Assembly: GCA_963924555.1 (NCBI GenBank)
Contig: OZ004588.1
Location: 5,918,205-5,982,204 of the forward strand
Reading direction: 5' to 3'
DNA: 64,000 nt
Source of the DNA: Crambe crambe
Taxonomy: Eukaryota > Porifera > Demospongiae > Poecilosclerida > Crambeidae
Of the stretch, positions 10,859 to 59,421 are shown one piece after another. Position 1 is the stretch's first letter; every line of letters begins with the position of its first letter. The translations under genes and the position numbers were made by a program. Below the pieces are notes generated by a model. That model searched no databases, was not told where the DNA came from, and saw nothing but the letters and a program-made list of their open reading frames with translations.

Positions 10859-10934
<76 letters not shown>

Positions 10935-12427
10935 GTTCTGTACAGCTACCATGTAAAAATAAGAGAGAGCTGCTGCAGTGCCCCAGAAGACCGATCCACT
11001 TTTCACTGCTTTCAGCCATAAAAAGTACGTGAACAGAAGAGCGAAGATGGCAATTCCCTCATTGTCATAGGAACCAGCCACAGACCTGGAGATGTAGCCT
11101 GGAACAATGGCGATGAAGCATGCAGCCAAGAGGCCAGCACGAGCATTCCAAACCTCCCTTGTCAGCAGAAAGGCAGCTATTGCAGTGAACCCACTGGAGG
11201 GAGGGGACACATGTATTATTACGGAGAGAAAGGATAAAGCAGTGGATGAAAAATGCATGGCATGGGGTGGATCCCGCAATGTGGACACCTTGAAGCCTCT
11301 AAAATATCACCCTGGACACTTCTCTACTCAGAACGCTTATTATTGGTCCTGACTTAATATTCCACTGTAATTATTGGAGGAATGGAAAGAAGGGACTAAA
11401 GGGTAGAAGATGATCAGGTGGAGGAGAGGCTTGATGTAAAAATGAAGGAGGAGGAAAGAGAAACAGGTGGTATTCCATATGCCAAATTTGGGAACATTTT
11501 ATTTCAAATTAAAACGAAACAGTTATTATAGTGGTTTTCAGTGTATACAATGGGTTGCATTTGACTCTTATGATGTCAGTCCTTTTCCAATTCATTACAG
11601 TCTTATTGAACTGACCTGAAAGTTGGAGCTAGGAACACACAGACATCTCGAATATGCACGGTAATGTGCAAGGAGTTGAGAATATGGTGGATGAGACCAG
11701 AAGTCACCATCAGGCCTGGATATACCTGGAACAACAAAGCAAAAATGTATGATTTCCCCCCAAGTGGAATAAATTTCCTGAAACAGTGGAACCTTTCAAT
11801 ATGAGGGTGTGAAAGAAAGAAAGAAAAACAAAAAAAACTTTTTTTCTATGTCCCCATGAAAATATCCATCTATGATACAAATAACTAGCAAACATTTCAA
11901 AAGTACTGGTCTCCGTATTGGAGCATTCACTTTTGAAATCAATACAAGAATCACAATAAAATAATTCACCGTTCCGCCTACAATCCTGCCAAGGGGGTAC
12001 CAGGCTCGGTCGTCAAACCAGTTCAAGAACTTGTAAAACCCGTTATTGGCCATATAATGAGTAGACCTATAATTGAACCTGAAACAATAAAATTTATTAT
12101 GCATGTTAATTTCTATTTTAAATGATACCCTCACAGATGTAATATTCTGCTCACATACCAGGGGTCGAATTCATGAATGATGGATTCAAATCTTATCACA
12201 GCAAATAAACGACTTGAAAAAGACACAATACAGGCTAATCCAAGGATCACTACGATGAGAAGAGATTGAGTCCCAGCTATTACGTCCAAGCCGCGCTGTT
12301 TATGTTCCTCCAGAAGCTTTGCTTTGTCTTGTACGCTTGCCGTAGACTCCTTGGTAGGTGCTGGTACCACTGTTTTCTCACTCTGGATCGACGTTTCAGG
12401 GTCAACCACTGCTGCAGCTGCAGCCAT
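4300..12427 (-). CDS. STT3B: STT3B catalytic subunit of oligosaccharyltransferase
   Basis: This ER membrane enzyme transfers the lipid-linked glycan to Asn in N-X-S/T sites. Sixteen exons join in frame to 866 aa: 12159-12427, 11970-12078, 11616-11725, 10950-11193, 10465-10553, 9357-9662, 8883-9037, 8332-8484, 7525-7691, 6682-6896, 6315-6424, 5678-5913, 5299-5412, 4852-4973, 4659-4740, 4300-4419. Visible motifs are HEFDPW (metal-site Asp, residue 88), [22 protein letters not shown] and the hallmark WWDYG at residues 634-638, followed by an [18 protein letters not shown] segment. The long charged N-terminus, the Lys-rich insert encoded by 7525-7691 and the basic Lys-rich tail point to STT3B rather than STT3A. 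Human STT3B is similar in length (about 826 aa). The start is the ATG at 12425-12427, followed by an Ala-rich leader. Several foldback repeats sit in its introns. It is divergent with SMARCE1. Confidence 0.97.
7921..8291. mobile_element. Foldback element inside STT3B intron 8
   Basis: The ends are long inverted repeats: GTCTGGCATAGCACTGCCCA at 7931 and its complement TGGGCGGTGCTATGCCAGAC ending at 8280, with pairing that continues through the GGTCTGGTGACATACAATAC segment on the left. The A/T-rich flank TTATTATTA is partly shared on both sides. There is no coding capacity. Confidence 0.7.
10555..10616. repeat. Three tandem copies covering an STT3B splice acceptor
   Basis: The string CACCTAATAAGGAAATAAG (with variants) occurs three times in a row, beginning within exon 5 at 10548-10553 and running into the upstream intron. 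Each copy carries a CTTATTAG-type acceptor on the minus strand, so alternative acceptors are possible. Only the exon-proximal one keeps the V-S-A-W frame. Confidence 0.6.
10700..10957. repeat. (AG)n microsatellite flanked by a duplicated splice-donor segment
   Basis: A pure AG run spans about 10862-10931, with a degenerate GGGAGGAGGAG region to its left. The 26-base string beginning ATTGTTCTGTACAGCTACCA occurs on both sides of the run (10835-10860 and 10932-10957). The right copy contains the 3' end and GT donor of STT3B exon 4; the left copy is a second, intronic version of the same donor. Confidence 0.85.
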
Positions 12428-42007: not shown

Positions 42008-43201
42008 ATGGCATTGCCAGAATGTAAACTATTTCGACTCTCCAGTCTCGAAAATGGGACAGGAGAAAATCTTGATAATAGAATTTATATGTACTATAAT
42101 AATTATGACTGGAAATACCCATTGCAGGGCTACAACAATACTTCTAATGTAAGAATAACGTCGTCAGTATTTTTGGCACTTACTGTAGTGGTTGCTATTC
42201 CATGTAACATCTTGGTGATTGTGAATATCATTAAGAAGCATCTCTTCAGGCAACCTACTATCCTTCAATTTTTTAATCTTCTAATCGTGTCCATGTTATT
42301 CTGCATAATACACATCATTCCTTTTGGTCTTGTGACTTCAATAGCTGGAGAATTTGTGCTAGGAAGCACTGACTTTATTCGCTGCATTGTGTGTTCTGTT
42401 GATGGGTTCATTCTGATTTTCCTCTCTATTGAAATGATTTCCAGCTTTCTTTTAATATCTGTGGATCGATTTTTGTATCTGTTTAAACCTTTGCGTCATT
42501 CAAGTATCGTCACTGTTAAAAGAACAATTATAGCAATCTTACTCACCTGGATACATGCCCTTGCCTTCAGCATACCTCCTCTATTTGGGTTTGGAGGGTT
42601 TAAATTGGCTGGTACACTTCTACCAGTATGTGTCCCATATTCTGTTAATCGAGGGGGGAAGATAAGTCGCTATTGGTGGTTGCTTATCTTTTCAGTTTTG
42701 CTTCCTTTCTTTCTTCTCGGAGTTACGACCAATGGATCAAGCTTCTTCATCATTTTAAGAAATTTACGAAAAAATCACCACCGCTTAAAAATTTGGTCTA
42801 CAGCTAGAACAAATGCAGATGAAAGGTACTCGAGTATTTATAGACAGCAGATAATACTGTTCCAAATGTTTGGCTCTCTTTTGATTGCAAATATTCTGAT
42901 TTACATTCCTGTTATTGCTTATGTTATAACAATTGTTAACAATGGCAGAGATTACTTGGAATTCCTTACCTTTGTCCACATTGCTTTCAATTCGCAGGCA
43001 GTGGTACATCCTGTGTTACAAGTTCTCTTTCTTAAGGAGATACGAAATACTCTCAAACGGATTTGCTGCTCACTTAAAGTAACCAAATTACCAAGTGTGA
43101 AGTGTTGTGGGTGCAGCTGTCTGGAAGCCTGCAAAGCAGCTGTCATACCAAGAGAAGCAGAGGCTCAAACAGCAGAAGAAGGTCAAGTGGTGGCTGCATA
43201 A
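42008..43201 (+). CDS. Class A-like seven-transmembrane receptor 1
   Basis: A single-exon frame of 397 aa. The extracellular start has N-glycosylation sites (NGTG, NNTS). TM1 is VFLALTVVVAIPCNILVI; TM2 has FFNLLIVSMLF without the usual Asp. Cys in IRCIVCSVDG before TM3 can pair with Cys in LLPVCVPYSV of loop 2. TM3 ends ISVDRFLYLFKPL (DRF in place of DRY); TM4 has the conserved Trp (LLTWIHALAF). The TM6 segment FGSLLIANILIYIPVIAYV has no CWxP. TM7 is HIAFNSQAVVHPVLQ, where NPxxY would be expected. The tail has CCGCSCLEACKAA, a Cys cluster likely to be palmitoylated. The ligand is unknown. Its tail faces that of receptor 2. I start at ATG 42008 because paralogue 2 begins the same way (MAFPDCKLF). 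Confidence 0.93.
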   Translation: MALPECKLFRLSSLENGTGENLDNRIYMYYNNYDWKYPLQGYNNTSNVRITSSVFLALTVVVAIPCNILVIVNIIKKHLFRQPTILQFFNLLIVSMLFCIIHIIPFGLVTSIAGEFVLGSTDFIRCIVCSVDGFILIFLSIEMISSFLLISVDRFLYLFKPLRHSSIVTVKRTIIAILLTWIHALAFSIPPLFGFGGFKLAGTLLPVCVPYSVNRGGKISRYWWLLIFSVLLPFFLLGVTTNGSSFFIILRNLRKNHHRLKIWSTARTNADERYSSIYRQQIILFQMFGSLLIANILIYIPVIAYVITIVNNGRDYLEFLTFVHIAFNSQAVVHPVLQVLFLKEIRNTLKRICCSLKVTKLPSVKCCGCSCLEACKAAVIPREAEAQTAEEGQVVAA

Positions 43202-46200
43202 CTCTTTTCCTGCAAGAGAATACTGATAGCTAGATGATGTTCTCTCAATTAGTGAGCTAGTTAAATAGCCTCTCTAAGGTATATGAGCACCTATTACTAC
43301 AAGTAGTGTTGAGAATAATTATATTCAAGTACACTTTTTCACTATACATTCTGTGGGTGCAGGCTAGTTTTCTATGATCTGTGTCACAAACCAGAGGGGA
43401 GCCCAAAACTACTTACTAATAGCTGTAGTAAAGTAAGATTGTATAGAGACACACACACTGCATGAGAACTAGCTATGCACACAACTCAACACAAACAAGT
43501 TCAGCCCTAGTCTGACCGGTGACCCTTAGACCAACCCAAGGAAAAGGGAGACCCTGGTAAAATCACACACATAACAAGAGTTAAATCAAATTAAAAATTT
43601 CCTTGTAAAGCCCGCAAGGGATATATACATACAGAGAGTGACTTATGATGTGACATGATACACGTGTGCAGTGAAAATTTGTGAAATACGTAGGTGTTCC
43701 ATTCTGTTCTGTTTAGTTAGGGAGGTGCACATTCTCCCACTATTATGCTCTGCTCTAATTCCAAGCGGTATTATGCTAACTTCTGTTATCTATTCTGCTC
43801 ACTTGAGCTACCTATTAGGTTTCAATTATGCTATTAAATATTCTCGTCATTCTATTGTAATAAAAGAGAAGCTTCAACATACGTAGTCTTCCAGAGAATT
43901 CTCTTGCTGACATAAAAATGAGCCGGATAATAGTGGGAGTGAATTACTAGCACTATTTAGCATTTCAGAGATAGTACCAGTGGAGTTTGTAGAAGCATAA
44001 AGTAAAGTGGCCATGTGCTTGATCATGCACATGATGTAGTTGTGCCTATTAGCTATGTCAGGCAAGCATTAAAAAGATGCCTATTAGCTATGCCAAAAGA
44101 AATGCCAGCAGAATGTGCACCTCCCTAGTTTAGATATGGCCTTTGTTACTAGAAGTTACCAGGTTACCAGGATACTAGCTATACATATGATAGTATAATA
44201 TTGCTGGTTACCTTTGGTTACTCATTGGCTGTTACCAGCAGTTACCTGAAGTTACGAGGTTAGCTATAGGATGAATACTGGTCATACCTGAATTTTTTAT
44301 TTTTTATTATTATTATTTTTTTAATAAATTCATGTTTGAAAACATTAAGGGTTACACAAATAGAAAGTGCTAACACCAGTGTGTAACCAAAAAAAGACAA
44401 TCTAAATGAGTAATGGCAGAGTTAATCTCTTAAAAGTAACTAGTGACTGAGTCCGCAGTGCATCTGCCGGGAGATTGTTCCATGTTGAAACACTGTTGAC
44501 AGTAAAAGATATGTTGGAAGCATTAGTTTTCACATGTGGTTGAAGGAACTGGTTAAGCAGACAACCATCCCTATCAATTTTGCGAACAAAGACATCACTC
44601 GGGAAATAAAGCAGACCTGCATGTATTTTGAACAGGGTGCATTGCTTCAAAATCATTCTTCGGTTTCTCAGAGTAGGCAGTCCAGCTTTGTCAGGAGATC
44701 ATTGTAGCCACAATCCCACTGACGCAGACACATCCTCAATGCAAACCTCTGGACCTTTTCCAGTTTTTCAATATTTTTGACAAGGTGAGGGTCCCATACT
44801 TGAGCAGCATATTCCAGGTGAGGACGGACCATAGTGATATACAACTGTAGATTTACCACATTACCAGGATGTTTTAACTATGGGACGACACAAAATATTG
44901 AACACGTATGTTAGAGAGTTACTTCAGCTACTTAGCTAGTGCCAATGTAATCAAATATATTATAGTGAAGTGAGTGAGTTACCAGGAAGGTATAGCTAGT
45001 GGGGCTGTCACAAAATATTTGGTCCGGGGAAATATTTTGTCCAGGGCGGACGAAAAATTTGCAATTTTTTGTCCGGCGCTGCCATAAATTGTCCTCTTGA
45101 GAACAAAGCCTCTCTTCATAAAACTGTGCTATCTTTTGCATGTATTAGCTATAATAGCTACTAGCTATTGACCACTGCATGCAGTCTCAGTCTGGGTAAC
45201 ACAGTCAGCTATCACAACAGCCGGTTTGTTCAGCCAACAAGTCAAACCCCTCCATACCAACTCTGGTTTTTATCATCTGTGCTCTACCTAATGTCTGGAG
45301 GGGACCAAATTATTGTCCAGTGGGACAAAATACGGCAGCCATATTTTGTTTGTAGTAACCATGCATATCAGCTTCCATATAGCTAATACAAGTTGGTAGG
45401 GTCATACAAAAAACAACAAAACAACAACAACAACAACAACAAGTATATATCTAGCTAGATAGCTAGATAGTAACAGCAGAGACAACAGTCTAGTCAAAGC
45501 CAGGATTATCAGAAAGTAACAGCAGAGACAACAGTCTAGCCATATCTAGTCGAATAAGAAATCCAGGACCACTGAGAGAACGACTACAAGTCAGAAAGTA
45601 AAGCAGAGGCAACCACATGTGATCAGCTAGACATCAGGAAAGGCAAGAACAATGAAATCAAAGACTAGACCTAGATACAGGCCTTGCATGGAAGTGAGCA
45701 TTTGAGAAGGGCACTAAGACACACAAGTAAACTCATCATAGGAATTGACATTTGAATCATCTGATTTATTTAATATACATGAGCCTAGACCCTTCATTGA
45801 TTACAAAAATGAATTTCAATGGTGTCATTGTTCCTACCAGTGCCGAGGCATAATTCTTTTTAAAGACTAACTCGTTAAATCAATGACGACAAACAGGAAA
45901 TTCAATTATATACATACCCTGTAACCTGTAAGACTCTTAAGATAATGTGATAATGACCCCCTCCCTCACAGGAGTCTTAAAAATCTTGTGACGAAAAGCA
46001 GCAGATTTTTGTTTTGTGGCCTTATATGTGTAGCTATACAGATATAGATTCAAAAGTCATAATGAATAATGCAGACAAAATTAATTCATTGTTAGCTAAA
46101 TGATATTTAACATATTAAATTAATTGACTCGAATATGTACACATTTTAATTGCTAACACAATTTACGTAATTCTTAACACTAAGAGAAAGATAATGCAAT

Positions 46201-46275
46201 AAAGTAACTGTAATAATATTATTATGGAAAACATTAAGCAACCTAGCTACTCACAATATCAAAGCAGGCAAAAGG
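43202..46275. other. Spacer between receptors 1 and 2
   Basis: It holds a truncated LINE fragment (44402-44859), a (CAA)n tract (45408-45440), a 58-bp direct repeat containing AGTAACAGCAGAGACAACAG (45467-45545), and an A/T-rich element near 45000-45350 with repeated AAATATTTTGTCC/GGGACAAAAT strings. No receptor remnants are seen. Confidence 0.5.
44402..44859 (-). pseudogene. 5'-truncated LINE (non-LTR retrotransposon) tail
   Basis: The minus strand encodes the end of a reverse transcriptase frame: ITMVRPHLEYAAQVWDPH, then NIEKLEKVQRFALRMCLRQW and YNDLLTKLDCLL. After a frame break near 44660 it continues with VSTWNNLPADALRTQSLVTF. This order is typical of the C-terminus of CR1/Jockey-like LINEs. 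After the stop comes a short 3' UTR and an ATAATAA/A-rich tail (44298-44335). The 5' part, including endonuclease and polymerase core, is missing. It is a dead copy. Confidence 0.8.
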
Positions 46276-47427
46276 TTATACAGCCACAACTTGACCTTCT
46301 GCTCTTTGATCCTCTGCTTCTCTTGGTATCACAGCTGCTTTGCAGACTTCCAGACAACCACACCCACAGCACTTCAAGCTTGGTAATTTCTTTGTTACTT
46401 TAAGTGAGCAGCAAATCCGTTTGAGGGCATTTCGTATCTCCTTAAGGAAGAGAACTTGTATCACAGGATGCACCAATACCTGTGAACTGAAAGCAATGTT
46501 GACAAAGGTAACAAATTCCAAGAAATCTCTTTTATGGATAGCGACTGTTAAAATATAAATACTAAGAGGAGAATACATCAGAAAATTTGCAACCGAAACA
46601 GATCCAAACATTTGGAACAATATTATCTGTTGTCTATGAATACTCGAGTATCTTTGATCTTTAGACCAAGCTTTTAAGCGACGGTGGTTTTTCCATAAAT
46701 TTAATAAAATGATGAGGAAACTGGATCCATTGGTAGCATATCCAAGAAGAGTGTAGGGAATCCCGACTGAAAAGAGAACCAACCACCAATAGTGATTTAT
46801 CTCTCCTGTTTCATCGATGACATATGGGACGCATACTGGTAGAAGTTTACCAGCCAATTTAAACCCTCCAAACCCAAATAGAAGAGGTATGGTGAGGGCA
46901 AGGGCATGAATCCAGGTGATTACAATTGCTATAATCGTTCTTTTAACAGTAACGACATTGGAATGACACAAAGGTTTGAATAGATACAAAAATCGATCTG
47001 CAGATATTAAAAGAAAGCTAGAACTCATTTCGATAGAGAGGAAAATCAGAATGAGTCCATCAACAGAACACACAACACAGCGAATAAAGTCAGTGCTTCC
47101 TAGTATAAATTCTCCAGCTATTGAAGTCACAAGAGCAAAAGGAATGAGGTGTGTTATGCAGAATAACATGGACCCAATTAGTAGATTCAAAAATATAAGG
47201 ATAGTAGGTTGCCTGTAGAGACGCTTCTTAGCAATATTCCGAATCACCAAGATGTTGCACGGAATTGCAATCACCACAAAAAGTGCCAGAAGCGCTGATG
47301 TTGCTATTCTTACATCAGAAGTATTGTCATAACCCTGCCGTGGGTATCTCCAGTCTTTTTCGGAGCTTCCATTATCAAGACTTGAGAGTCCTTCATTGAG
47401 AAATAGTTTACAGTCTGGGAATGCCAT
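46276..47427 (-). CDS. Class A-like seven-transmembrane receptor 2
   Basis: A single exon, 383 aa, the closest paralogue of receptor 1. It has MAFPDCKLF at the start, an NGSS glycosylation site, ISADRFLYLFKPL after TM3, the FGFGGFKLAGKLLPVCVPYV loop with the disulfide Cys, FVNIAFSSQVLVHPVIQ in TM7, and a CCGCGCLEVCKAA Cys-rich tail. Like its paralogues it lacks TM2 Asp and NPxxY. It is tail to tail with receptor 1 and followed upstream by a decayed third relative (47860-48345), so this part grew by local duplication. Confidence 0.93.
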   Translation of the reverse strand: MAFPDCKLFLNEGLSSLDNGSSEKDWRYPRQGYDNTSDVRIATSALLALFVVIAIPCNILVIRNIAKKRLYRQPTILIFLNLLIGSMLFCITHLIPFALVTSIAGEFILGSTDFIRCVVCSVDGLILIFLSIEMSSSFLLISADRFLYLFKPLCHSNVVTVKRTIIAIVITWIHALALTIPLLFGFGGFKLAGKLLPVCVPYVIDETGEINHYWWLVLFSVGIPYTLLGYATNGSSFLIILLNLWKNHRRLKAWSKDQRYSSIHRQQIILFQMFGSVSVANFLMYSPLSIYILTVAIHKRDFLEFVTFVNIAFSSQVLVHPVIQVLFLKEIRNALKRICCSLKVTKKLPSLKCCGCGCLEVCKAAVIPREAEDQRAEGQVVAV

Positions 47428-47859
47428 TACTGATTTCTTATAGCTGGATGAATTGGCTAATAGCTTACTACATATAAGTTGGCTGAACTACATATACTTA
47501 GCTAGCTACTTAATGAAACCCTTGGCAACTAACTAGCAAGCTAACTCCAATAGTGGACCTAGTATAGTTGTGTTTGCATCATTTTTGTGTAATTTTTGCA
47601 TCATTCTCATATAATTAACCACTAATTTCCAGTGAAATTTAAGGATCACATATGGCATTCCTGGAAAGCAGTAGCTATAATTACTAGCCATAACTATAGC
47701 TATATTATTATGGCTAGTATAATAATTATGATATTGTCTTGCTTGACAGAATTGGTAATGGCAAAAATATTTAGCTCATCATGGTTATGAGAACGTGGAA
47801 TGCATAATAATTATTATTGGCAATATAAAGGTTACGTAGCTATATATATACCAGGTAAA

Positions 47860-48345
47860 GTATCCACTGTACAAAGAATCCCGACCCAAATCTAATCAAT
47901 GGAAGGCAACTAGAAGTGTATACAGGCCCTGTTTGGACACATACTGGTAAAAATGTATAGCTAGCTACAAACCTAATTAAACTCTCCAAACCCAGGTAGC
48001 TATGCTGAAGGCAAGCTGGTGAATATGATTGTTCTTTTAACAGTGAAAGATGCAAAGGTTTATCTAAACAGATACAAAAACAGATATGCTAGAAATAATT
48101 TCAATGGATTCATCAACAGAACACATGACACAGCGAATGAAGTCAGTGCTTCTTATCTCCAGCTATTGAGTTCACAAGAGCAAAAGGAATGAAGTGTATT
48201 ATGATGGACACGATCAAAGGAAAGTATAGGTTGCCTGTAGAGATGCTTCTTAGCAATATTCCCAATCACCAAGGTGTTGGAATTACAATCACAACAAAAA
48301 GTGCCAGAAACACTAGTGATGTTGTTAACATTATTCTTACACTAT
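47860..48345 (-). pseudogene. Deleted receptor pseudogene related to receptor 2
   Basis: The minus strand carries recognisable pieces in order: LVIGNIAKKHLYRQP-like sequence, IIHFIPFALVNSIAGD, TDFIRCVMCSVD, a TM3/DRF remnant and a loop-2 remnant (FLPVCVQTGPV). Frameshifts and several internal deletions separate them. The start codon and everything after TM5 are missing. It sits between receptors 2 and 3 in the same orientation. Confidence 0.85.
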
Positions 48346-48469
48346 TATAATGACATAAATATGAAGAAAAAAGTTGTGAGAGTAACTATACATATAGCTA
48401 GCTACCTTTAATATTAGCTATATTAGTGAGCATAATAGAAAAGGTCCAAAATTCAGTGTTACTTAATTA

Positions 48470-49621
48470 TTATGGGATCTCGGATTCTTCTGTAACTTGA
48501 CTTTCTGACTGTTGTCTCGTCACCATCGCTCTTTTGCAGGCCTCAAAACAGCCACATCCACAATACTTCTTTGGAAATATCTTTATCATCAGAGCCTTAG
48601 GAAAGCAACAGATCCTTTTGATAAAAGTCCGTATCTCTTTAATAAAGAGAGCTTGTACCAGAGGATGCATTACTCCCTGGGAACTTAAAGCAATGTGTAG
48701 TAAAGTACCGAACTCCAAAGAATCACTTCCAGTGATATAAATGACAATAACATAGAGGAAAACAGGGGTATAGATGAGAATATTTATAATAAAAAGCGCA
48801 CCAAAAATATGAAATAGCAGGAATTGCTGCTTGTAATGATGAATGTTATTTTGACTTGCATTTGTTGTGTTGGATGCAGTTTTTATTCGACGATTTTTTT
48901 TGTATAAGTTTCTGCATATAATGCAGAGAATCGATACATTCACAATGATCCCAAATAGAGCTACTGGAATTGCCAACCCCAAAGTGAGGAATAAAAAGTA
49001 ACTGTCAAATTCATTTACCCCATCTTCGTTGGTCCTGAGAGAATTTGGAAAGCATATTGGCCAACGGTTACCAGGTAGAAAGAATCCTGACCCAAATCCA
49101 AATAAAGGAGGTATGCTGAAGGCAACTGAGTGTATCCAGACAAAGGAAATTGCCACACCTATTCTCTTTATGGTGACAATACTTGGATACCTCAAAGGTT
49201 TACAAAGATATATTAATCTATCCAGAGATATTAGGACGACACTCCATGCGATTGCATTGAAGAGACATACAAGAATAGCTCCATCAATGGAACACACAAT
49301 GCAACGGATGAAATCAGTGTTTCCATATATAAATTCTCCAGCTATTGAGGTAACAATAGGAAATGGTATGATGTGTATTATACACAACAGCATAGTTGTA
49401 ATCAGTAGATTCAAATACAGCACAATAATAGGCTGTTCGAAGAGACGGTTTTTAACAACATTCCCTATGACGAGGATGCTACATGGCATTGCAATCACAA
49501 CAAAGAGTATCAGAAAAATCAATGTTGCTATTCTCACACTGGGCGAACTGTCATCTTCTGGGTCAGGGAAGCTCCAGTTTCTTATAATACTTGTGTTGCT
49601 GAGTCCTTGGCAGAGTGCCAT
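48470..49621 (-). CDS. Class A-like seven-transmembrane receptor 3
   Basis: A single exon of 383 aa and the most divergent intact member. It has FLILFVVIAMPCSILVIGNV (TM1), LYLNLLITTMLLCIIHIIP (TM2, no Asp), IRCIVCSIDGAILVCL, and ISLDRLIYLCKPLRYPS with DRL in place of DRF. Loop 2 is longer (FFLPGNRWPICFPNSLR). TM7 is IALSSQGVMHPLVQ, and the tail has CGCGCFEACKRA. Asn-rich ICL3 (TTNASQNN) differs from the others. It is head to head with receptor 4 across the 3-kb repeat-rich spacer. Confidence 0.92.
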   Translation of the reverse strand: MALCQGLSNTSIIRNWSFPDPEDDSSPSVRIATLIFLILFVVIAMPCSILVIGNVVKNRLFEQPIIVLYLNLLITTMLLCIIHIIPFPIVTSIAGEFIYGNTDFIRCIVCSIDGAILVCLFNAIAWSVVLISLDRLIYLCKPLRYPSIVTIKRIGVAISFVWIHSVAFSIPPLFGFGSGFFLPGNRWPICFPNSLRTNEDGVNEFDSYFLFLTLGLAIPVALFGIIVNVSILCIICRNLYKKNRRIKTASNTTNASQNNIHHYKQQFLLFHIFGALFIINILIYTPVFLYVIVIYITGSDSLEFGTLLHIALSSQGVMHPLVQALFIKEIRTFIKRICCFPKALMIKIFPKKYCGCGCFEACKRAMVTRQQSESQVTEESEIP

Positions 49622-50218
49622 GATGAAGACTGGCTTTTATAATTCCTGGAATTCAGTAGTAGTAATTATATAGTAGAGGCTCAATCAATAGTGTGTTTGA
49701 CTGCATGCAGAATTTACAGCTATTATATATAGTCAATGGAAGCCATTCTAATAATTATTCATCATGCTCCGTTTGAAGTTATCTATGCTATATTAGTACA
49801 CACGCGTAGCTATAATACACACGCGTAGCCAGAACCCTGACTGCTCTTGTTTTACAAAGAACTGATATCAGATCCTGCCCAGCTGTAGCCACTTCAAGGG
49901 CAATAATTATGGGGGATATTCAGTTCGGAACTGTGTGGTGTCCGCGCCACATGTGCACCGGTGTCAAAGTCACGGATGACTCCCCCCGGAAAATGACTCC
50001 CCCAGTCATTCCTGCCTAAGGCATAAATGACTCCCCCCTGGTGAAAATGACTCCCCACACGGTCATTCCTGCCTTGGCCCCTGATCACAATAAATCATGT
50101 AGCTAGCTAATTTATCTCAGGAAGAAGTTGATGCTGAAGATGATGATGAACCTGTGGGACAATTTTTATGTATAGCTATATAGCTGGCTAGCAACAAAAA
50201 TGGTGTCATGGATTTACT

Positions 50219-50312
50219 GCTCCTGTCAGATTCTGCATATTGTGACTGCCTGCATGATGCCAGAGATATGGTGGAATGCGAAGATTGCTTGAACTGGTTT
50301 CACCAAAACTGT
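50219..50312 (+). pseudogene. PHD-finger fragment (degenerate duplicate)
   Basis: The frame reads AYCDCLHDARDMVECEDCLN and WFHQNC, a half PHD finger with Cys and His in the usual order (C-x-C, C-x2-C, W-F-H-x2-C). The following sequence is out of family and the second zinc half is absent. It parallels the better copy at 51660-51770. Confidence 0.6.
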
Positions 50313-50395
50313 GCATATTTTATTATAAGCTTAACTGTCCTTTGTGTAAGCACTATATATGATGCATCTTCCTTTGAACTTTAATGCATGCATAT

Positions 50396-50930
50396 TCTGG
50401 TAGTCATTCATGCCTAGGATGGAATGATTCTCTTCCATGGCTATAGATTTTCAGGGAGTCATTCATGCCTAGGATGAAATGACTCCCCTTCAATCATGCC
50501 GAGGATGAAATGATTCCCTTCCATGGCTATTAATTTTTCAGGGAGTCATTCATGCCTAGGATGAAATGATTCTCTTCCATGGCTATAGATTTTTCAGGGA
50601 GTCATTCATGCCTAGGATGAAATGACTCCCCTGGAGTCATTCATGCCAAGGATGAAATGATTCCCTTCCATGGCTATAGATTTTTCAGGGTGTCATTCAT
50701 GCCTAGGATGAAATGATTCTCTTCCATGGCTATAGATTTTTCAGGGAGTCATTCATGCCTAGGATGAAATGACTCCCCTGGAGTCATTTATGCCTAGGAT
50801 GAAATGACTTCCTTCCATGGCTATAGTTTTTTTCAGGCAGCCATTCATGCCTAGGATGAAATGACTCCCCTTCCATTTAGGGAGTCATTCATGCTGAGGA
50901 TGAAATGATTCCCTTCCATGTCTATTGATA
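50396..50930. repeat. Palindromic tandem array (GAGTCATT...AATGACTC)
   Basis: A unit of about 57 bp, or a shortened 30-bp form, is repeated roughly ten times. The core is GTCATTCATGCCTAGGATGA followed by AATGACTCCC, so each unit holds the inverted pair GAGTCATT / AATGACTC around CCTAGG. The linker TTCCATGGCTATAGATTTTT also recurs. Spacing is irregular and there is no CRISPR-like spacer variation. Confidence 0.85.
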
Positions 50931-51170
50931 ATTCATGCCTTGCAATTCGCCTCGTCAATCTCCCCTCAAAACTGGTTCCCAAAAGGTCAGGATATTGTAA
51001 TGGACCATTGTGCTACATACTAAGATTGTGCAGAATAAGGAGGTACCTAGTAATTATCCTCGTCAACTTCCCCTCAAAACAGATTATCTGCTACAGTTTG
51101 CTTCAAAATTAATAGTCAACTATAATAGCTACCAATCCATAATATTGTAGAGAAAGATCCAAAGAAGATG

Positions 51171-51770
51171 AAAAATATAGTGCTGGGTGGGAAATGGATC
51201 TGTGATGAACATATCATCCTTGCTCAGCATATCTTGAAGATGCAATTTCCGAATATTGGTGGATTTCAGTCACCATTGCTCTGCCAAAATGATGCCTTGA
51301 TTCCAGTTCAGAATGGTGAAACAATACGTATACGTAGGTACATACATGCATAATTTGTTTTTCTCATGCTCAGGAAGAAGTGGATGCTGAAAATGATGAA
51401 ACAATGGAATACAGGAATATGCTATACATACATACATGTTCCTCCTGTGCAGCAACAAAGTGGTATCGTAGATTGTGGAGTATTTGCGATAGCTTTTGCT
51501 GTCCATGCAGCACTAGGAGAAAATGTGGGAGAGATTGAATTCCAGCAGGAAGAAATGAGGAGCCATCTTTCTAAATGTTTATGGAAGAAAACTTTTTTTT
51601 CTCCTTTTCCAAAGTTGGGGGAAAGGGGGCATAGGGATAATTACTTCCCCTGTCGGATTCTGGAGTTATACTGTGACTGCCTTATGCCAGAGACATATGG
51701 CAACATGGTTGAATGTGAACATTGTTTTAATTGGTTTCACCAAGACTGTGTAGATTATGACAATATATAG
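51171..51770 (+). pseudogene. ULP1/SENP-type protease plus PHD-finger fragment
   Basis: Two adjacent frames give a C48 protease remnant. The upstream part is GGKWICDEHIILAQHILKMQ then FPNIGGFQSPL. The downstream part is HVPPVQQQSGIVDCGVFAIA then FAVHAALGE, with the catalytic Cys in DCG. The His/Trp block that normally lies between is missing, so the active site is incomplete. In the same frame follows a PHD-like half finger: YCDCLMPETYGNMVECEHC, then NWFHQDC, ending at TAG 51768-51770. ULP1 domains joined to PHD-like fingers occur in transposon-derived genes of marine invertebrates; this one is probably such a relic. A spliced functional gene cannot be excluded. Confidence 0.6.
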
Positions 51771-52619
51771 TGAAAAAAATTTGTGCCGTTGTCAAAGTCA
51801 CGGATGACTCCCCCCGGAAAATGACTCCCCCAGTCATTCCTGCCTAAGGCATAAATGACTCCCCCCTGGTGAAAATGACTCCCCACACGGTCATTCCTGC
51901 CTTGGCGCCTGATCACAATAAATCATGTAGCTAGTTTATCTCAGGAAGAAGTTGATGCTGAAGATGATGATGAACCTGTGGGACAATTTTTATGTATAGC
52001 TATATACATAAAAATGTTTATGTATATGTTTATGTTTATGTATATGTTTATGTTTATGTATAGCTATTATATATAGTCAATGGCTTCCATTGACTATATA
52101 TAATAGCTGTAAATTCTGAGATCAGTAACTGAAGTGTGTGATGTGGGGTTCATGACCCTTCATAGCATGACAGCGGGGGTGCTACAGTCATACACCATAT
52201 TATGTGGGGCTACCTGAAGAACAGGACACAGCTGTCAACCTCCATAGCTATCTAGCTATATAATGAAGGGGACACCACGATATGGACCACCTGAGAGCAC
52301 TATCTGACCTGGGCCGCTTGGAATTCATTATTGGAGCTCCAGAGGAACTTCAGTCATAATGTATAAGCTAATAAGCTAGACCCATGCATAACTTCCTGTT
52401 CTTGTAGCCATTACTCAGGAAATGTACTAGCAGCTGCTATTAACTATATTGCATTACGAGGTCAATTAGTGTGGAATCTATATTATAGTAGATGGCTATA
52501 TTAGGGAATCCCACATCAAATTGTGAGTGCAATTATAAAATCATTGAACTATTGTTTAACTGCCATAGCTAATTACAGTTTAGCTCTCTCTCCCTCTTTG
52601 TGATTGTGAGGAACTAACA

Positions 52620-53702
52620 ATGACATACTGCCAGCAACTCAGCAACTCAAGCCTTGAAAGAAATTGGACTTACCCAGACCCAGAAGCTGATAATGCCTTC
52701 GGCATAAGAATCACAATGGCAGTGTTTCTGATAGCTTTTGTAGCAATTGCAATGCCTTGTAACATCTTGGTGATTGGAACAATAATCAAGAAGCGCCTCT
52801 TCAAGCAACCAACTGTTTTGCTGTTTCTAAACCTACTACTGACAACTGTTGTCTTCTGCATAGTGCACCTGATACCATTTGGTATTGTTACTGCAATTGC
52901 TGGAGAATTCATACTTGGAAACACTGACTACGCTCGTTGCATTGTATGCTATATTGATGGAGTTCTTCTCATAATTCTCTCAATTGAAATTGGTTCCACT
53001 ATCATCCTAATATCAGTGGACAGATTTGTATATCTATACAAACCCTTGAAGTATTCAGGAATTATCACCATTAGGAAAACAATTATAGCCATTGGATTTG
53101 CATGGATATACTCCTTTGTCTTCAGCATACCTCTTCTATTTGAATTTGGAAAGTTTAAGCTAGCTGGTAGGCTTTTGCCGGTGTGTATTCCTAGGTTTAC
53201 CAATGAAGCAGGCCTATTTGATGGCTACTGGTGGTTACTCATCTTTGGAGTGATATTACCATTAGTTTTCCTTGGGGTCATCTTCAATCTTTTCAGTCTC
53301 ATCATCATCTTTAAGAATATACGCAAAAGCCATCAACGCTCCAAAGCTCTATCTACAACAAATAAAAGTCTGAAGTACTCAAATATTCAGAAACAACAAA
53401 TTCTGTTGTTCCATATATTCGGTACTCTTTTAGTTGCTAACATGTTCATCTATATTCCTGTTGTTATTTATGTCGCAGTTCTTAGTACAGAGTTTTTAGC
53501 ATTTCTTAACCTTCTTCACATTGCATTCAACTCGCAAGCAGTTGTACATTCGGTGGTGCAGGCTCTCTTCATCAAGGATGCACGAAATATAGCAAAAAAG
53601 ATTTTATGTTGCTTATCTAAGAAATCACCAAGCTCGCAGTGTTGTGGGTGTGGCTGTATGGAGGCCTGCAATGCAGCTGTCATACGAAGAGAATCAGAAT
53701 AG
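52620..53702 (+). CDS. Class A-like seven-transmembrane receptor 4
   Basis: A single exon of 360 aa. It has two N-terminal glycosylation sites (NSSL, NWTY), FLIAFVAIAMPCNILVIGTI (TM1), FLNLLLTTVVFCIVHLIP (TM2, no Asp), ARCIVCYIDG, ISVDRFVYLYKPLKYSG, LFEFGKFKLAGRLLPVCIP, and TM6 IFGTLLVANMFIYIPVVIYV. TM7 reads IAFNSQAVVHSVVQ: the Pro kept in all other intact members is replaced by Ser. The tail has CCGCGCMEACNAAVI and ends shortly after RRESE. It is oriented towards pseudogene 5. Confidence 0.93.
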   Translation: MTYCQQLSNSSLERNWTYPDPEADNAFGIRITMAVFLIAFVAIAMPCNILVIGTIIKKRLFKQPTVLLFLNLLLTTVVFCIVHLIPFGIVTAIAGEFILGNTDYARCIVCYIDGVLLIILSIEIGSTIILISVDRFVYLYKPLKYSGIITIRKTIIAIGFAWIYSFVFSIPLLFEFGKFKLAGRLLPVCIPRFTNEAGLFDGYWWLLIFGVILPLVFLGVIFNLFSLIIIFKNIRKSHQRSKALSTTNKSLKYSNIQKQQILLFHIFGTLLVANMFIYIPVVIYVAVLSTEFLAFLNLLHIAFNSQAVVHSVVQALFIKDARNIAKKILCCLSKKSPSSQCCGCGCMEACNAAVIRRESE

Positions 53703-53875
53703 ATAATTGAAGGTGGCTGTGGCTGCATGGTTGACATTGTTTCTGTACCAGTATTTTTGGTTCACATATTCACTATTCATGATATCAGTAGGTGGTAGTG
53801 ATCAACCAACATCAATTTCACCTGTCCAAAATCATTAATAATTATTTTTGTGATACACTGTTTTTCTCTTGTAGT

Positions 53876-54330
53876 ACTCATATGTATCCTATTACAGAAA
53901 CACCACATACTGTAGCAGGAAATGTTTGTGGGGTAAAATTTTCTTCCCAGGCAATTTATTCTCATGCCCTCCTCTGGGAGGAGGGCCCGGGAAGAGAGCC
54001 TGGGAGGAGAGCCTGGGAATGAGGCTCGATCCAGCCCTGCATTCAGCTTCCACTGACCTGGGAGTATATTTATAGTCGATAAATAAAGGCCATGTAGCTA
54101 TAACCAGGGATTGTGGCTTCTTCTTTGTTTAGTATACAAAGAAATGTATAACAGTTGAGTAGATTATTGAGGAAGTTAGCTAATAGGCTCCTGATATGAA
54201 CTGGGATATCAAGTGTAGCAGAAATAATTAGCAAACATAACATGCCATTCATATGATAGGTGGTCTACGTGTGTAGTATTCGCATAAAATCAATTACTAC
54301 ATGTCTTACGTTCATCCCCCACAAGCCTGA
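53876..54330. repeat. Flanking repeat of receptor pseudogene 5 (partner at 55888-56720)
   Basis: The two blocks are direct copies: ATGTATCCTATTAC, GGAAATGTTTGTGGGGTAAA, CTCCTCTGGGAGGAGGGCC, GGATTGTGGCTTCTTCTTTG and ATATGAACTGGGATATCAAG occur in the same order in both. The right copy carries about 380 extra bases in the middle (55980-56310). Both have a 20-bp tandem of GGGAGGAGAGCCT-type units. They bracket the inverted pseudogene 5 and lie upstream of receptor 6. Confidence 0.8.
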
Positions 54331-54348
54331 GTATTTAGCTATTAATAC

Positions 54349-55800
54349 CTAGCCAAAGAACTTAGTGATTGAAGTTCGTATGTCCTTGATCAAGAGAGCT
54401 TGTATCAAAGGATGAACTAGAGTCTGTGAATTGAAAAAAATGTGGGCAAAGGTGAGAAATTGCAAGAATTCTCTCTTAGCGGCAACACTTGTTATTACAT
54501 AAGCAATAAAGGGTATATAGATGAGAATATTCCCTATAAAAAGAGCACCGAAAACTTGAAATAGCCTCACTTGCTGCTTCTGAAAGTTTGAATATTTCGA
54601 CGGACTTTATTCAAACGGTGATGATTTCTTCTCAAATTTTTGCAGATGATGCAGACGATGCATATGTCCACAACAATCACAAGAAGCAGTAATGGAATTA
54701 CTAGTGCAAAGATGAGCAATAACCAGTAAGGATTAATCTTCCTGTTATTAGCACGATCAACTGAATATGGAGAACACAATGGCAAGAACCTACCAGCGAG
54801 TAGAAATCCTCCAAACCCAAAGAAAGGAGGTATGCTGAAGGCAATGGTGTGCACTTGGGTCAATATGATTGCTACCATTGTTCTCTTTACAATGATGATG
54901 TTTGAATAGCACAAAGGTTTGTAGAGATACACAAACCTGTCTACAGATACTAAAACGGTTATTTCCCTGTATAAGCAGTCACGAAATGTGACAACCATTA
55001 CAACTGATACACCTAGTATGATCATGCAACTGATACACCTAGCACAACCATTGCAACTGATACACCTAGCACAACCATTGCAACTGATACACCTAGTACA
55101 ACCATTACAACTGATACACCTAGTACGACCATTACAACTGATATACCTAGCACAACCACTACAACTGATACACCTAGTACGACCATTACAACTGATACAC
55201 CTAGTACAACTGATACACCTAGTACGACCATTACAACTGATACACCTAGTACGACCATTACAACTGATACACCTAGCACAACCATTACACACAACTGATA
55301 CACCTAGTAGGACTATTACACCATTGCCAACCAGCAACTATATGCATGTTACATATAGCTTGCTGAGTAAGCATGTTTCGTGACTGCTTATACAGGGAAA
55401 TAACCACTAAAACAATATTCCAACCAATCTCGATAGAGAGGGAAATGAAAATTACTCCATCCACGTAACATACTATGCAGCGAATAGAATCAGTGCTTCC
55501 AAATATAAATTCTCCAGCTGTTGAGGTCACAATAGCAAATGGTAGATGTGCTATGCAGAAGAACAGGTTGGTGATCAACAGATTCAAAAACAGGAGGATG
55601 GTAGGCTGCTTAAATAAACGCTTCTTTACAATACTCCCTATCACCAGGACGTTGCACAGGATTGCAATCACACCAAAAAAAGTCAAGAAAACTGACATTG
55701 TTATCCTTACACTGGAAGCATTATCATCCGATGGATCGGGGTAGCTCCAATTCCTTGTCAGGGTTTCATCTAGGAATTTCACCTTGGAGGGGAAGTTCAT
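54349..55800 (-). pseudogene. Receptor pseudogene 5, split by a transposon
   Basis: It is very close to receptor 6 (shared FLTFFGVIAILCNVLVIG, LLITNLFFCIAHLPFA and FSIPPFFGFGGFLLAGRFLP). Three lesions are visible: a 449-bp element at 54957-55405 interrupts TM3 just before VDRFVYLYKPL; a one-base loss in the intracellular loop 3 region near 54590 shifts the frame; and a stop after ITKFFG removes the Cys-rich tail. The pieces outside these lesions remain well conserved, so inactivation is recent. It is head to head with receptor 6 (starts about 1 kb apart), suggesting an inverted duplication. Confidence 0.93.
54957..55405. mobile_element. 449-bp MITE carrying a 27-bp minisatellite, 8-bp target duplication
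   Basis: The ends are perfect 30-bp inverted repeats starting GGTTATTTCCCTGTATAAGC. ACTAAAAC is duplicated at 54949-54956 and 55406-55413; receptor 6 has the unoccupied site as ATTAAAAC, which confirms the insertion. Between the ends are about 11 copies of a 27-bp unit (ACAACTGATACACCTAGTAC plus GACCATT), readable in more than one frame. The GG start and 8-bp duplication fit Merlin-type or some hAT elements. There is no transposase. Confidence 0.92.
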
Positions 55801-56791
55801 GGAACATGTGGCAATAAGGCCACAGTGGGGGGGGGAGAGGGAGAGAGGAGAGAGTGCCGGAGTTAATTAAACTTAATTAAGAGCAAATCACTCACATGTA
55901 TCCTATTACTCTAAAAATATCATATAGAGGAAATGTTTGTGGGGTAAAATTTTCATGTTTCTAATACACATTAATTTTTTTGATGATGAATTGTCCCAAG
56001 CTGTTTTGTACTCCATAATGGTTGGACTCAAATGTTAGCCCCAAGACTGCTATAGCTAATATGGAGAGCTAATTTAGAAATGGCCAAAATATTATTTGAA
56101 TATTATTTGATTTCCACATGGGACAAATTTTAGAGGCAACCCTTGATCCCCTCCCATGCATGGTGCATGGTTCCCAAGCCAACATGCAAGTCTTCCAAAA
56201 AAAATTCCATATATGCCCAGGTTCTCCCACACCTTGGCCTCCCCTATGACCCATGCCCCTATTATAGTCCTGACCTCACCTATCTAAAAATCCCTAGCCT
56301 TAATTTACTCTATGCATTCTTATACCCTCCTCTGGGAGGAGGGCCTGGGAGGAGAGCCTGGGAGGAGAGCCTGGGAACGAGGCTAGATCCAGCCCTGCAT
56401 TCAGCTTCCATGGACCTGGGAGTATATTATAGTCAATAAATAAAGGCCATGTAGCTATAACCAGGGATTGTGGCTTCTTCTTTGTTTATAGTATTACAAA
56501 GAAATGTATAACAGTGGAGTAATTATTGAGGAAGTTAGCTAATTAGCTAAAAAGCTTCCTGATATGAACTGGGATATCAAGTGTAGTAGCAAATATAACA
56601 TGCCATTCATAGTAGGTGGTCTACGTATGTTGTATTCGGACTATACAGTATACTACATGTTGCACATTCACTGTTTCATCCCCCACAAGCCTGAGTATTT
56701 AATTAGTACCTAGCCATGTAGCATACCTTTTTACAGCTAGTATTCGATTCATTTCTTAGCTAGTAGATCTAACTGTGTCCAACCACGCCTC

Positions 56792-57904
56792 ATGGTGATT
56801 ATGGAACGCTGTCTAAAATTCAACAACTCAGACATCACAAGGAATTGGAGCTACCCCGATCCATCGGATCATAATGCTTCCAGTGTAAGAATAATGATGT
56901 CAGTTTTCTTGACTTTTTTTGGTGTGATTGCAATCCTGTGCAACGTCCTGGTGATAGGGATAATTATCAAGAAGCGTTTATTTAAGCAGCCTACCATCCT
57001 CCTATTTTTGAATCTGTTGATCACCAACCTGTTCTTCTGCATAGCACATCTACCATTTGCTACTGTGACCTCAATAGCTGGAGAATTTATATTTGGAAGC
57101 ACTGATTCTATTCGCTGCATAGTATGTTACGTGGATGGAGTAATTTTCATTTCCCTCTCTATCGAGATCGGTTGGAATATTGTTTTAATATCTGTAGACA
57201 GGTTTGTGTATCTCTACAAACCTTTGCGTTATTCAGACATCATCACTGTAAAGAGAACAACGGTAGCAATCATATTGACCCTAATGCACACCATTGCCTT
57301 CAGCATACCTCCTTTCTTTGGGTTTGGAGGATTTCTACTCGCTGGTAGGTTCTTGCCATTGTGTTCTCCATATTCAGTTGATCATGCTAGCAGGCAGATT
57401 AATCGCTACTGGTTATTGCTCATCTTTGGACTAGTAATTCCATTACTGCTTCTTGTGCTTGTTGTGAACATATGCATCGTCTGCATCATCTGCAAAAAAT
57501 TGAGAAGAAATCATCACCGTTTGAATAAAGTGCGTCAAAAATATTCAAACTTTCAGAAGCAGCAAGTGAGGCTATTTCAAGTTTTCGGTGCTCTTTTTAT
57601 AGGGAATATTCTCATCTATATACCCTTTATTGCTTATGTAATGACAAGTGTTGCCACTAAGAGACAATTCTTGCAATTTCTCACCTTTGCCCACATTGCT
57701 TTCAATTCACAGACTCTAGTTCATCCTTTGATACAAGCTCTCTTGATCAAGGACATACGAACTTCAATCACTAAGTTCTTTTGCTGCTTGCCCAGAATAA
57801 AACTAAGCATGCAATGTTATGGGTGTGAGGCCTGCAATGCAGCTATAATGCAGGAAAATCAAGTTGGTATGAATGAAGGCCAAGTCGTATATGTGACTGC
57901 ATAG
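56792..57904 (+). CDS. Class A-like seven-transmembrane receptor 6
   Basis: A single exon of 370 aa and the intact partner of pseudogene 5. It has an NNSD glycosylation site, FLTFFGVIAILCNVLVIGII (TM1), FLNLLITNLFFCIAHLP (TM2, no Asp), IRCIVCYVDG, ISVDRFVYLYKPLRYSD, loop-2 Cys in FLPLCSPYSV, TM6 VFGALFIGNILIYIPFIAYV, and TM7 IAFNSQTLVHPLIQ. The tail has a shortened Cys cluster (CYGCEACNAA). A second in-frame ATG at 56801 would shorten it by three residues. The untouched TM3 provides the empty-site reference for the element in pseudogene 5. Confidence 0.93.
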   Translation: MVIMERCLKFNNSDITRNWSYPDPSDHNASSVRIMMSVFLTFFGVIAILCNVLVIGIIIKKRLFKQPTILLFLNLLITNLFFCIAHLPFATVTSIAGEFIFGSTDSIRCIVCYVDGVIFISLSIEIGWNIVLISVDRFVYLYKPLRYSDIITVKRTTVAIILTLMHTIAFSIPPFFGFGGFLLAGRFLPLCSPYSVDHASRQINRYWLLLIFGLVIPLLLLVLVVNICIVCIICKKLRRNHHRLNKVRQKYSNFQKQQVRLFQVFGALFIGNILIYIPFIAYVMTSVATKRQFLQFLTFAHIAFNSQTLVHPLIQALLIKDIRTSITKFFCCLPRIKLSMQCYGCEACNAAIMQENQVGMNEGQVVYVTA

Positions 57905-58281
57905 ATAGTTGCTTAAAGAATTGTGTTGCTGTTTATTATTTCATCTCTCATGCATACATCATAAATATTGCTGTATTTCCTCGCTAACTTACTGTTGCAG
58001 CTTTGTATAAAACTCCAGGTGCCATTGACTGAAGAAGCCATGTGTAACTATTAATATGGTATATATCATATCCAGTTTTCCTCATGACCTGTGTTGTAGC
58101 TTCCTGTGAAAGAAGCCAACCACTTACCTGCTAGAATTGGGGGAGTCCCCTTATTAATGCGCATGCGTTCTACATCATTATCACTAGCACTCGTATAGAT
58201 TGTATGGTTTTGTTAGAGCTTGCAAGCTAGCAAGCTAGCTAGCAAGTAGATCTCTAGCTTATCTCTATCATACAAGAAATA
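57905..58281. other. Short spacer between receptors 6 and 7
   Basis: It holds the receptor 6 3' UTR and receptor 7 promoter. GCGCATGCG occurs at 58160 and an AGCTAGCAAGCTAGC run at 58220-58245. No further feature is seen. Confidence 0.4.
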
Positions 58282-59421
58282 ATGGAATTCTGCCTGCAAC
58301 TTAACAACACGACTGATTGGAGCTACCCCGATCCAGAAGCTGACAATGGTTCAAGTGTCAGAATAACAATGTCAGTTTTCTTGATACTCTTCGTCGTGAT
58401 TGCAACGCCCTGTAACATTTTAGTAATCGGCAGCATAGTGAAGCAGCGTCTGTTCAAGCAACCCACCATACTGCTATTTTTAAACTTGCTCGTTGCCAAC
58501 ACTCTATTCTGCATAATACACCTTGTACCATTTGGTATTGTGACTTCAGTAGCTGGAGAATATATATTGGGAAGCACTGACTTCATTCGTTGCTGTGCGT
58601 GCCTAGTTGATGGGGTCATTCTCATCTTTCTTTCCATAGGAATTGGTTGGAGCATTGTCTTTATATCTGTGGATAGGTTTGTGTATCTGTACAAACCTCT
58701 GCGATATTCAAACATCATCACCATTAAAAGAACAGTTATAATGATAGTGATAGCCTGGATATATACAATCGCTTTCTCCATTCCTCCTCTATTCGGGTTT
58801 GGGGGGTTTGCCCTAGCTGGAAAGTTTTTGCCTGTGTGTTCACCTTACTCTACCGATGAAGAAGGAAGACTTAATCAATACTGGTGGCTCCTTATCTTCG
58901 CAATGATAATTCCACTACTACTTACTGTTACAGTCATGAATGTGTGGATCCTACAGATCATCTGCAAAAATATACGCAGAAATCGTTGCCGCTCTAAGAA
59001 TCTATCCAGAGAAGAAGCAAGTCGAAGTTACTCAAACACTCAGAAACAACAAATTTGGTTATTTCAAGTCTTTGGCGCTCTTTTTATCGCAAATATTCTC
59101 ATCTACATACCCCTGATCGCTTACATTTTAGCAATTACCATTACCAAAAGAAAAAGTTTCTTGGAACTCCTCACTTTTGTTCACATTGCTTTCAATTCTC
59201 AGACAGTAGTGCATCCTCTGCTACAAGCTCTTTTCATTAAGGATATTAGGGCTCTTATTAAAAGATTCTTATTGTGCTGCTCACCTAAGAAGTTACCGAG
59301 CTTGCAACACAATGACTATGTGTGTTGTGGCTGTCTGGAAGCCTGCAATGCTGCTGTGGCAATTCAAAGAGAATCTGATCAGGAAACACAAGAAAATCAA
59401 GGGCAGGCTGTGACTGCTTAA
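58282..59421 (+). CDS. Class A-like seven-transmembrane receptor 7
   Basis: A single exon of 379 aa. It has NNTT near the N-terminus, FLILFVVIATPCNILVIGSI (TM1), FLNLLVANTLFCIIHLVP (TM2, no Asp), IRCCACLVDG, ISVDRFVYLYKPLRYSN, FGFGGFALAGKFLPVCSPYS, and TM5 from YWWLLIFAMIIPLLLTV. ICL3 is basic (RRNRCRSKNLSREEASR). TM6 is VFGALFIANILIYIPLIAYI and TM7 IAFNSQTVVHPLLQ. The tail contains KRFLLCCSPKK and CCGCLEACNAA. It follows receptor 6 on the same strand, 377 bases downstream. Confidence 0.93.
   Translation: MEFCLQLNNTTDWSYPDPEADNGSSVRITMSVFLILFVVIATPCNILVIGSIVKQRLFKQPTILLFLNLLVANTLFCIIHLVPFGIVTSVAGEYILGSTDFIRCCACLVDGVILIFLSIGIGWSIVFISVDRFVYLYKPLRYSNIITIKRTVIMIVIAWIYTIAFSIPPLFGFGGFALAGKFLPVCSPYSTDEEGRLNQYWWLLIFAMIIPLLLTVTVMNVWILQIICKNIRRNRCRSKNLSREEASRSYSNTQKQQIWLFQVFGALFIANILIYIPLIAYILAITITKRKSFLELLTFVHIAFNSQTVVHPLLQALFIKDIRALIKRFLLCCSPKKLPSLQHNDYVCCGCLEACNAAVAIQRESDQETQENQGQAVTA

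Follow-up and report, generated by a model that had tools for sequence, protein, structure and literature searches.

A lineage of class A receptors with exchanged TM5 and TM7 activation residues in the sponge Crambe crambe

The switch formed by TM2, TM5 and TM7 is treated as nearly universal in the activation of class A (rhodopsin-like) G-protein-coupled receptors. In the portion of the activation-pathway study drawn on here (PMC6954041), Y7x53 leaves its contacts with 1x53 and 8x50 for new ones with 3x43, 3x46 and R3x50, N7x49 moves toward D2x50, and the side chains of the sodium pocket are given as 2x50, 3x39, 7x45 and 7x49. The same source reports that the D2x50A and N7x49A mutants of the human A2A receptor lose agonist potency, with a 16-fold loss for Y7x53A, and calls D2x50 and Y7x53 indispensable from mutation data; the signalling lost by these mutants indicates that these positions matter. 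Asp is found at 2.50 in 87% of human class A receptors, according to the section consulted of a separate survey (PMC5592726).

Several described receptors depart from this scheme at single points. In the excerpts used here, the bitter taste receptors (TAS2Rs) are described as having H7.49, Arg in place of D2.50 and Tyr at 6.48, with Ser possible at 7.50; they differ from the receptors described below in having L7.53 and in lacking the DRY motif, W4.50 and P6.50 (PMC5592726, PMC10392674). A further source, likewise drawn on in part, describes a natural N2.50 and N5.58 in GnRH1R, where Tyr at 5.58 abolishes signalling while D7.49 and Y7.53 are kept (DPxxY), and N5.58 in NTS1R (PMC7576152). His occurs at 7.49 in working class A receptors: the motif of the oyster CCK receptor 2 (CCKR2) is HPxxY in the passage seen (PMC6219549), and GPR161 reads HPLIY in our alignment; both keep Y7.53. 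Thus, parts of the set reported below have precedents singly, and the combination of E/Q7.53, N5.58 and H7.49 is apparently undescribed, as no account of it was found in open papers.

A comparable system is described in the sponge Amphimedon, where some 126-130 rhodopsin-like receptors fall into clades made up of sponge sequences alone (PMC4302439, PMC10570526). In the extracts of these accounts used here, AqRho is likewise a large lineage-specific class A expansion, of about 126 genes without eumetazoan orthologues, and its tandem clusters hold 2-8 genes with 51-74% identity; the extracts describe no TM2, TM5 or TM7 motif, and the likeness to the receptors considered here is one of description.

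The window, a stretch of 64,000 nucleotides, is part of a 7.66-Mb scaffold in the 143-Mb genome of Crambe crambe. It carries a tandem cluster of six intact receptors (W1-W6), each a single ORF of 360-397 aa coding for a seven-helix protein, together with one pseudogene, as the original prediction had stated. The features, with window coordinates and generic residue numbers, are:

42008..43201, + strand: W1, class A receptor, 397 aa; S95 at 2.50 (42290-42292), N242 at 5.58 (42731-42733), Y299 at 6.48, H334 at 7.49 (43007-43009), Q338 at 7.53 (43019-43021)
46276..47427, - strand: W2, class A receptor, 383 aa; S86 at 2.50 (47170-47172), N233 at 5.58, Y285 at 6.48, H320 at 7.49 (46468-46470), Q324 at 7.53 (46456-46458)
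48470..49621, - strand: W3, class A receptor, 383 aa; T76 at 2.50 (49394-49396), N228 at 5.58, Y284 at 6.48, H319 at 7.49 (48665-48667), Q323 at 7.53 (48653-48655)
52620..53702, + strand: W4, class A receptor, 360 aa; T76 at 2.50 (52845-52847), N223 at 5.58, Y278 at 6.48, H310 at 7.49 (53547-53549) followed by Ser for Pro at 7.50, Q314 at 7.53 (53559-53561)
about 54355..55800, - strand: receptor pseudogene, broken frame, interrupted by a minisatellite
54991..55320, no strand assigned: 27-bp minisatellite, 12.4 copies, within the receptor pseudogene
56792..57904, + strand: W5, class A receptor, 370 aa; Leu at 4.50, N79 at 2.50 (57026-57028), N226 at 5.58, Y276 at 6.48, H311 at 7.49 (57722-57724), Q315 at 7.53 (57734-57736)
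58282..59421, + strand: W6, class A receptor, 379 aa; N73 at 2.50 (58498-58500), N220 at 5.58 (58939-58941), Y275 at 6.48, H311 at 7.49 (59212-59214), Q315 at 7.53 (59224-59226)

The other window receptors are 53-66% identical to W6. The fragments of the pseudogene retain FLNLLITN, VDRF and SQTLVHPLIQ, the TM7 string being readable in one frame (FNSQTLVHPLIQ), and its first part shares 96% DNA identity with W5 over 330 bases. Pairwise dN/dS values among W1-W6 (NG86, 15 pairs) span 0.15-0.50; for 14 of the pairs dS is near or above 1, which makes the estimates rough, and dN/dS is 0.15-0.36, with the W1-W2 pair at 0.50. These values show purifying selection acting on the six genes.

A profile search, which the original prediction had proposed as a check, matched Pfam 7tm_1 (PF00001) in all six (53.9-78.5 bits against a cut-off of 30.5; E 2.4e-14 to 7.6e-22). 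Each of them has D/E3.49-R3.50, C3.25 with its ECL2 Cys, and P6.50. Position 2.50 is not Asp in any (S, S, T, T, N and N in W1-W6), and the NPxxY position reads HPxxQ in five and HSxxQ in one (W4). Given the family profile and the other class A motifs, HPxxQ is best regarded as a variant inside class A, and the six ORFs are, as judged from their sequence, intact class A receptors. Other identities were considered and set aside. An opsin is contradicted by the lack of the retinal-binding Lys in the 7.43 column, in all 71 receptors of the lineage defined below. The TAS2R family is not among the Pfam matches listed up to E 10, from which HMMER filters remove weak ones; H7.49, Y6.48 and the lack of D2.50 are shared with it, but the presence of DR[FL] in 6/6, P6.50 in 6/6 and W4.50 in 5/6 is contrary to that family. 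The nematode Srx chemoreceptor profile (PF10328) is outscored by PF00001 in all six and exceeds its cut-off in just two. Contig scans of IMG/VR, prokaryote genomes and phages found no relatives.

The registers of the motifs were taken from profile alignments, one of a six-receptor profile with bovine rhodopsin and one of a wider 15-receptor profile with squid rhodopsin. In the former, NLLITS falls on NLAVAD and HPLVQ on NPVIY, ungapped; in the latter (E 7.9e-38), P5.50 falls on Pro, Asn on Y5.58, His on N7.49 and Glu on Y7.53. The profile of the window six alone mis-registers TM5 by two residues against bovine rhodopsin; hence the 5.58 assignment rests on the 15-receptor profile and the in-genome alignment. 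W1-W6 and one further receptor have an extra residue in TM5 (P-x8-N), and the spacing is P-x7-N in 49 rows having both P5.50 and N5.58.

With these registers, most of the motifs originally listed are borne out. DR[F/L] is kept in all six (VDRF in the pseudogene), as is the Cys pair between TM3 and loop 2 (C3.25 and the ECL2 Cys). The TM4 Trp, claimed for every copy, is present in five of the six, being Leu in W5 (56792-57904) and Gln in the pseudogene. S-Q-x-x-x-H-[P/S]-x-x-Q does replace NPxxY throughout, with H7.49, P/S7.50 and Q7.53 placed by both rhodopsin alignments. The TM2 claim holds in that Asp is missing at 2.50, which lies three residues after L2.47; the string F/Y-[L/F]-N-L-L, which had been named as the site of the substitution, is not the Asp position. 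It is the ordinary N2.45-L2.46-x2.47, and the proposed register was off by three to five residues. The outcome that would have overturned the claim, a conserved Asp or NPxxY at the aligned positions, was looked for and is seen at neither place in the window six. Further exchanges common to all six had gone unnoticed: Asn for Tyr at 5.58, Tyr for Trp at 6.48, Ile or Met for Ser at 3.39, and Ile or Ala for Phe at 8.50.

A genome search returned 126 matches, seven of them in the window (six genes and the place of the pseudogene). Ninety-one other places were tabulated; 14 proved partial or broken and were set aside, leaving 77. A further 28 lie outside the table, and HPxx[EQ] is absent from the four of these that were looked at. 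The alignment thus holds 83 near-complete receptors, namely the 77 and the window six, and weak or split receptors are under-sampled since sequences were taken by score rank. When columns 2.50 and 7.49-7.53 are left out of the tree, 71 of the 83 form one clade against all 12 others (SH-aLRT 98; a quick tree with some long branches). In a careful tree this clade has a support of 100/100, which there means separation from two outgroup rows only. The window six form one group inside it (support 100 in the quick tree, 100/100 in the careful tree). Members of the clade are spread over many chromosomes, and their median pairwise identity is 31%.

Despite this divergence, the same exchanges recur throughout the clade. 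Asn replaces Tyr at 5.58 in 67/71, His replaces Asn at 7.49 in 66/71, and Tyr at 7.53 gives way to Glu (42) or Gln (27) in 69/71; the three occur together in 63/71. Position 8.50 is V/I/L in 68, with one Met, one Ala, one gap and no Phe. D3.49 is kept in 71/71, R3.50 in 70/71, P7.50 in 69/71, F6.37 in 69/71 and Q6.30 in 62/71. Among 299 columns ranked by conservation over the 71 paralogues, C3.25, H7.49 and N5.58 stand 15th, 16th and 17th, followed much lower by 7.53 (44th), D2.50 (65th) and W6.48 (66th). The codons vary synonymously: CAT 46 and CAC 20 for H7.49, AAT 56 and AAC 11 for N5.58, and GAA 22, GAG 20, CAA 24 and CAG 3 at 7.53. The ranks of H7.49 and N5.58, set beside the median identity and the window dN/dS values, point to a retention beyond what chance would probably leave. 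The set is not absolute, as eight of the 71 lack its full form; three rows without the Asn and His show other changes besides, with YPxxE and S5.58 in two and a broken TM7 in L032. Further marks of the lineage are Arg 3.21 (71/71), an extra Cys at 3.22 (70/71), a Trp before TM1 (70/71) and an N-terminal Cys (67/71 in the aligned column, 68/71 if a Cys anywhere in the 45 residues preceding TM1 is accepted). A second disulfide may join the N-terminus to Cys 3.22, in a region where the alignment is loose. Some clade members, L006, L008, L024, L025, L045 and L053 among others, have open frames of 460-670 aa, which suggests long C-terminal tails.

Thus, the earlier idea of a separate receptor lineage with a consistent alternative set at its activation switches stands, and the set extends beyond the cluster: the TM7 exchange is common to the 71-member clade. 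The original prediction was a real observation in which one motif was misplaced and a lineage-wide feature was taken for a local one. We regard the assignment to a class A expansion of at least 71 near-complete members as practically secure.

The same alignment provides an internal control in two receptors outside the clade (L005 and L011), which keep Y5.58, N7.49, Y7.53, F8.50, D2.50, S3.39 and W6.48. One of them carries leucine-rich repeats, and none were seen in the shorter stretch taken for the other; both are likewise 7tm_1 receptors of Crambe crambe and, unlike the 71, fully canonical, NPxxY included. The other ten outside receptors have D2.50 and a TM7 with DP or NS. A second class A group is recognizable, comprising L049, L057 and L059-L063 (C5:212-217 kb, C20:1.33 Mb and C12:4.49-4.55 Mb), whose members keep D2.50, read DP or NS in TM7, have Arg aligned at 3.39 and leave the C3.25 column empty; L069-L071 look similar.

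Position 2.50 behaves differently from the TM5-TM7 set. Across the 71 it is D in 47, N in 17, E in 2, S in 2, T in 2 and Y in 1, and 41 of the 63 receptors with N5.58, H7.49 and [EQ]7.53 retain D2.50. The tree calls for at least five changes between Asp and other residues, in a direction not given by parsimony, the outgroups having Asp. Both observations indicate that D2.50 was lost separately from the TM7 change. Comparison of D2.50 with W6.48, S/T3.39 or E7.53 yielded three supported independent pairs and no demonstrable covariation. The window six are the most altered of the clade, with D2.50 lost, I/M at 3.39, Tyr at 6.48 and Gln at 7.45. Their changes at 2.50, 3.39, 7.45 and 7.49 cover all the side chains given above for the sodium pocket, and they likely have no allosteric sodium site. 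The presence or absence of D2.50 by branch offers a natural experiment that uncouples the TM7 latch from the sodium site.

The residues exchanged across the clade are those joining TM5, TM7 and helix 8 in other class A receptors (N for Y5.58, H for N7.49, E/Q for Y7.53 and V/I/L for F8.50), and R3.50, P6.50 and P7.50 are retained. The explanation that we favor overall, with a fair measure of confidence, is a large class A expansion with a rewired TM5-TM7-helix 8 latch. Its members would still be ligand-gated and G-protein-coupled; that they are functional receptors appears highly probable. TM7 would move inward on activation, and E/Q7.53 would bond R3.50 and N5.58, this polar latch replacing the water-bridged pair of Tyr5.58 and Tyr7.53. 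In the polar core, H7.49 would stand where Asn normally does, opposite Asp2.50 in the majority of clade members and opposite S/T/N2.50 in W1-W6. For the specific N5.58-E/Q7.53-R3.50 contact the odds seem even; since 7.53, the 44th-ranked column, accepts both Glu and Gln, not all members can require a charge-specific salt bridge. An extension of this scheme, which we consider improbable, would have H7.49 stand in for the allosteric sodium, such that in members with D2.50 a protonated His7.49 with Asp2.50 makes activation dependent on pH rather than sodium, E/Q7.53-N5.58-R3.50 acts as a second, tyrosine-free hold on the active state, and the window cluster, with its neutral 2.50, has dispensed with ion or proton.

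The strongest competing explanation, possible though one we would not bet on, is that the set is the ancestral class A state of sponges, ordinary among them and functionally neutral, with a polar 7.53 doing the job of Tyr. Its depth in the Crambe crambe receptor tree fits this, as do the sponge-only clades reported for Amphimedon (PMC4302439, PMC10570526), but compared with the two canonical receptors in this genome, at least four switch positions have changed jointly, a pattern that speaks for a rewired contact and against a single neutral exchange.

It is less probable, and on balance unlikely, that these are signalling-poor or decoy proteins, that is, ligand-binding 7TM proteins that do not activate G proteins through TM7, for instance arrestin-biased or scavenger receptors. 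The loss of function in the A2A mutants cited above from part of their source (PMC6954041) would agree with this, as would a cluster of at least five strong Arrestin_C ORFs in the genome, where alpha- and beta-arrestins were not distinguished. Against it, D3.49 (71/71) and R3.50 (70/71), a G-protein contact, would not then stay so strict, and both GnRH1R (N2.50/D7.49/N5.58) and the TAS2Rs (H7.49/S7.50/L7.53, R2.50) are naturally active in the material cited above. The least probable reading, that the window cluster is decaying under relaxed constraint and has lost D2.50, W6.48 and S3.39 through drift toward pseudogenes, could draw on the one pseudogene in seven copies, the three different residues at 2.50, the W4.50 lost in W5 and P7.50 in W4, and the W1-W2 dN/dS, but it is opposed by six full-length ORFs, by the low dN/dS of the other 14 pairs (with dS near or above 1) and by the identity of H7.49, Q7.53, Q7.45, N5.58, Y6.48, D3.49 and R3.50 in W1-W6.

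If the rewired latch is correct, dozens of receptors here use another set in place of the near-universal switch, and the lineage would point out the replaceable parts of the "common activation pathway". The set also provides a signature in sequence for sponge receptors, about whose ligands and coupling little is known. As to their role, the genes resemble chemoreceptor families in their tandem arrays, single ORFs, recent copies (near-copies are found, for example, at C10:3.79-3.85 Mb) and pseudogenes, and may serve to sense compounds from the environment or from symbionts; chemoreception by the cluster and clade might be given an equal chance of being right or wrong. In the part seen of one Amphimedon study, larvae swim differently when given drugs for dopamine and trace-amine receptors (PMC10570526), so that small molecules from symbionts or the environment are plausible ligands. 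G-alpha exons above the cut-off are found on four contigs of the genome. The Arrestin_C (PF02752) ORFs mentioned above lie at G000:C21:3414163-3515960.

Elsewhere in the window, an intact ORF of 809 aa (31835-34264, - strand) with DUF4371 and a hAT dimerisation domain represents a hAT-type transposase-derived gene. Simple repeats at 2385-3010 yield long low-complexity ORFs on both strands. The ORF at 10692-11288 (- strand) continues into a CT-rich repeat, and its start may resemble the oligosaccharyl transferase subunit STT3.
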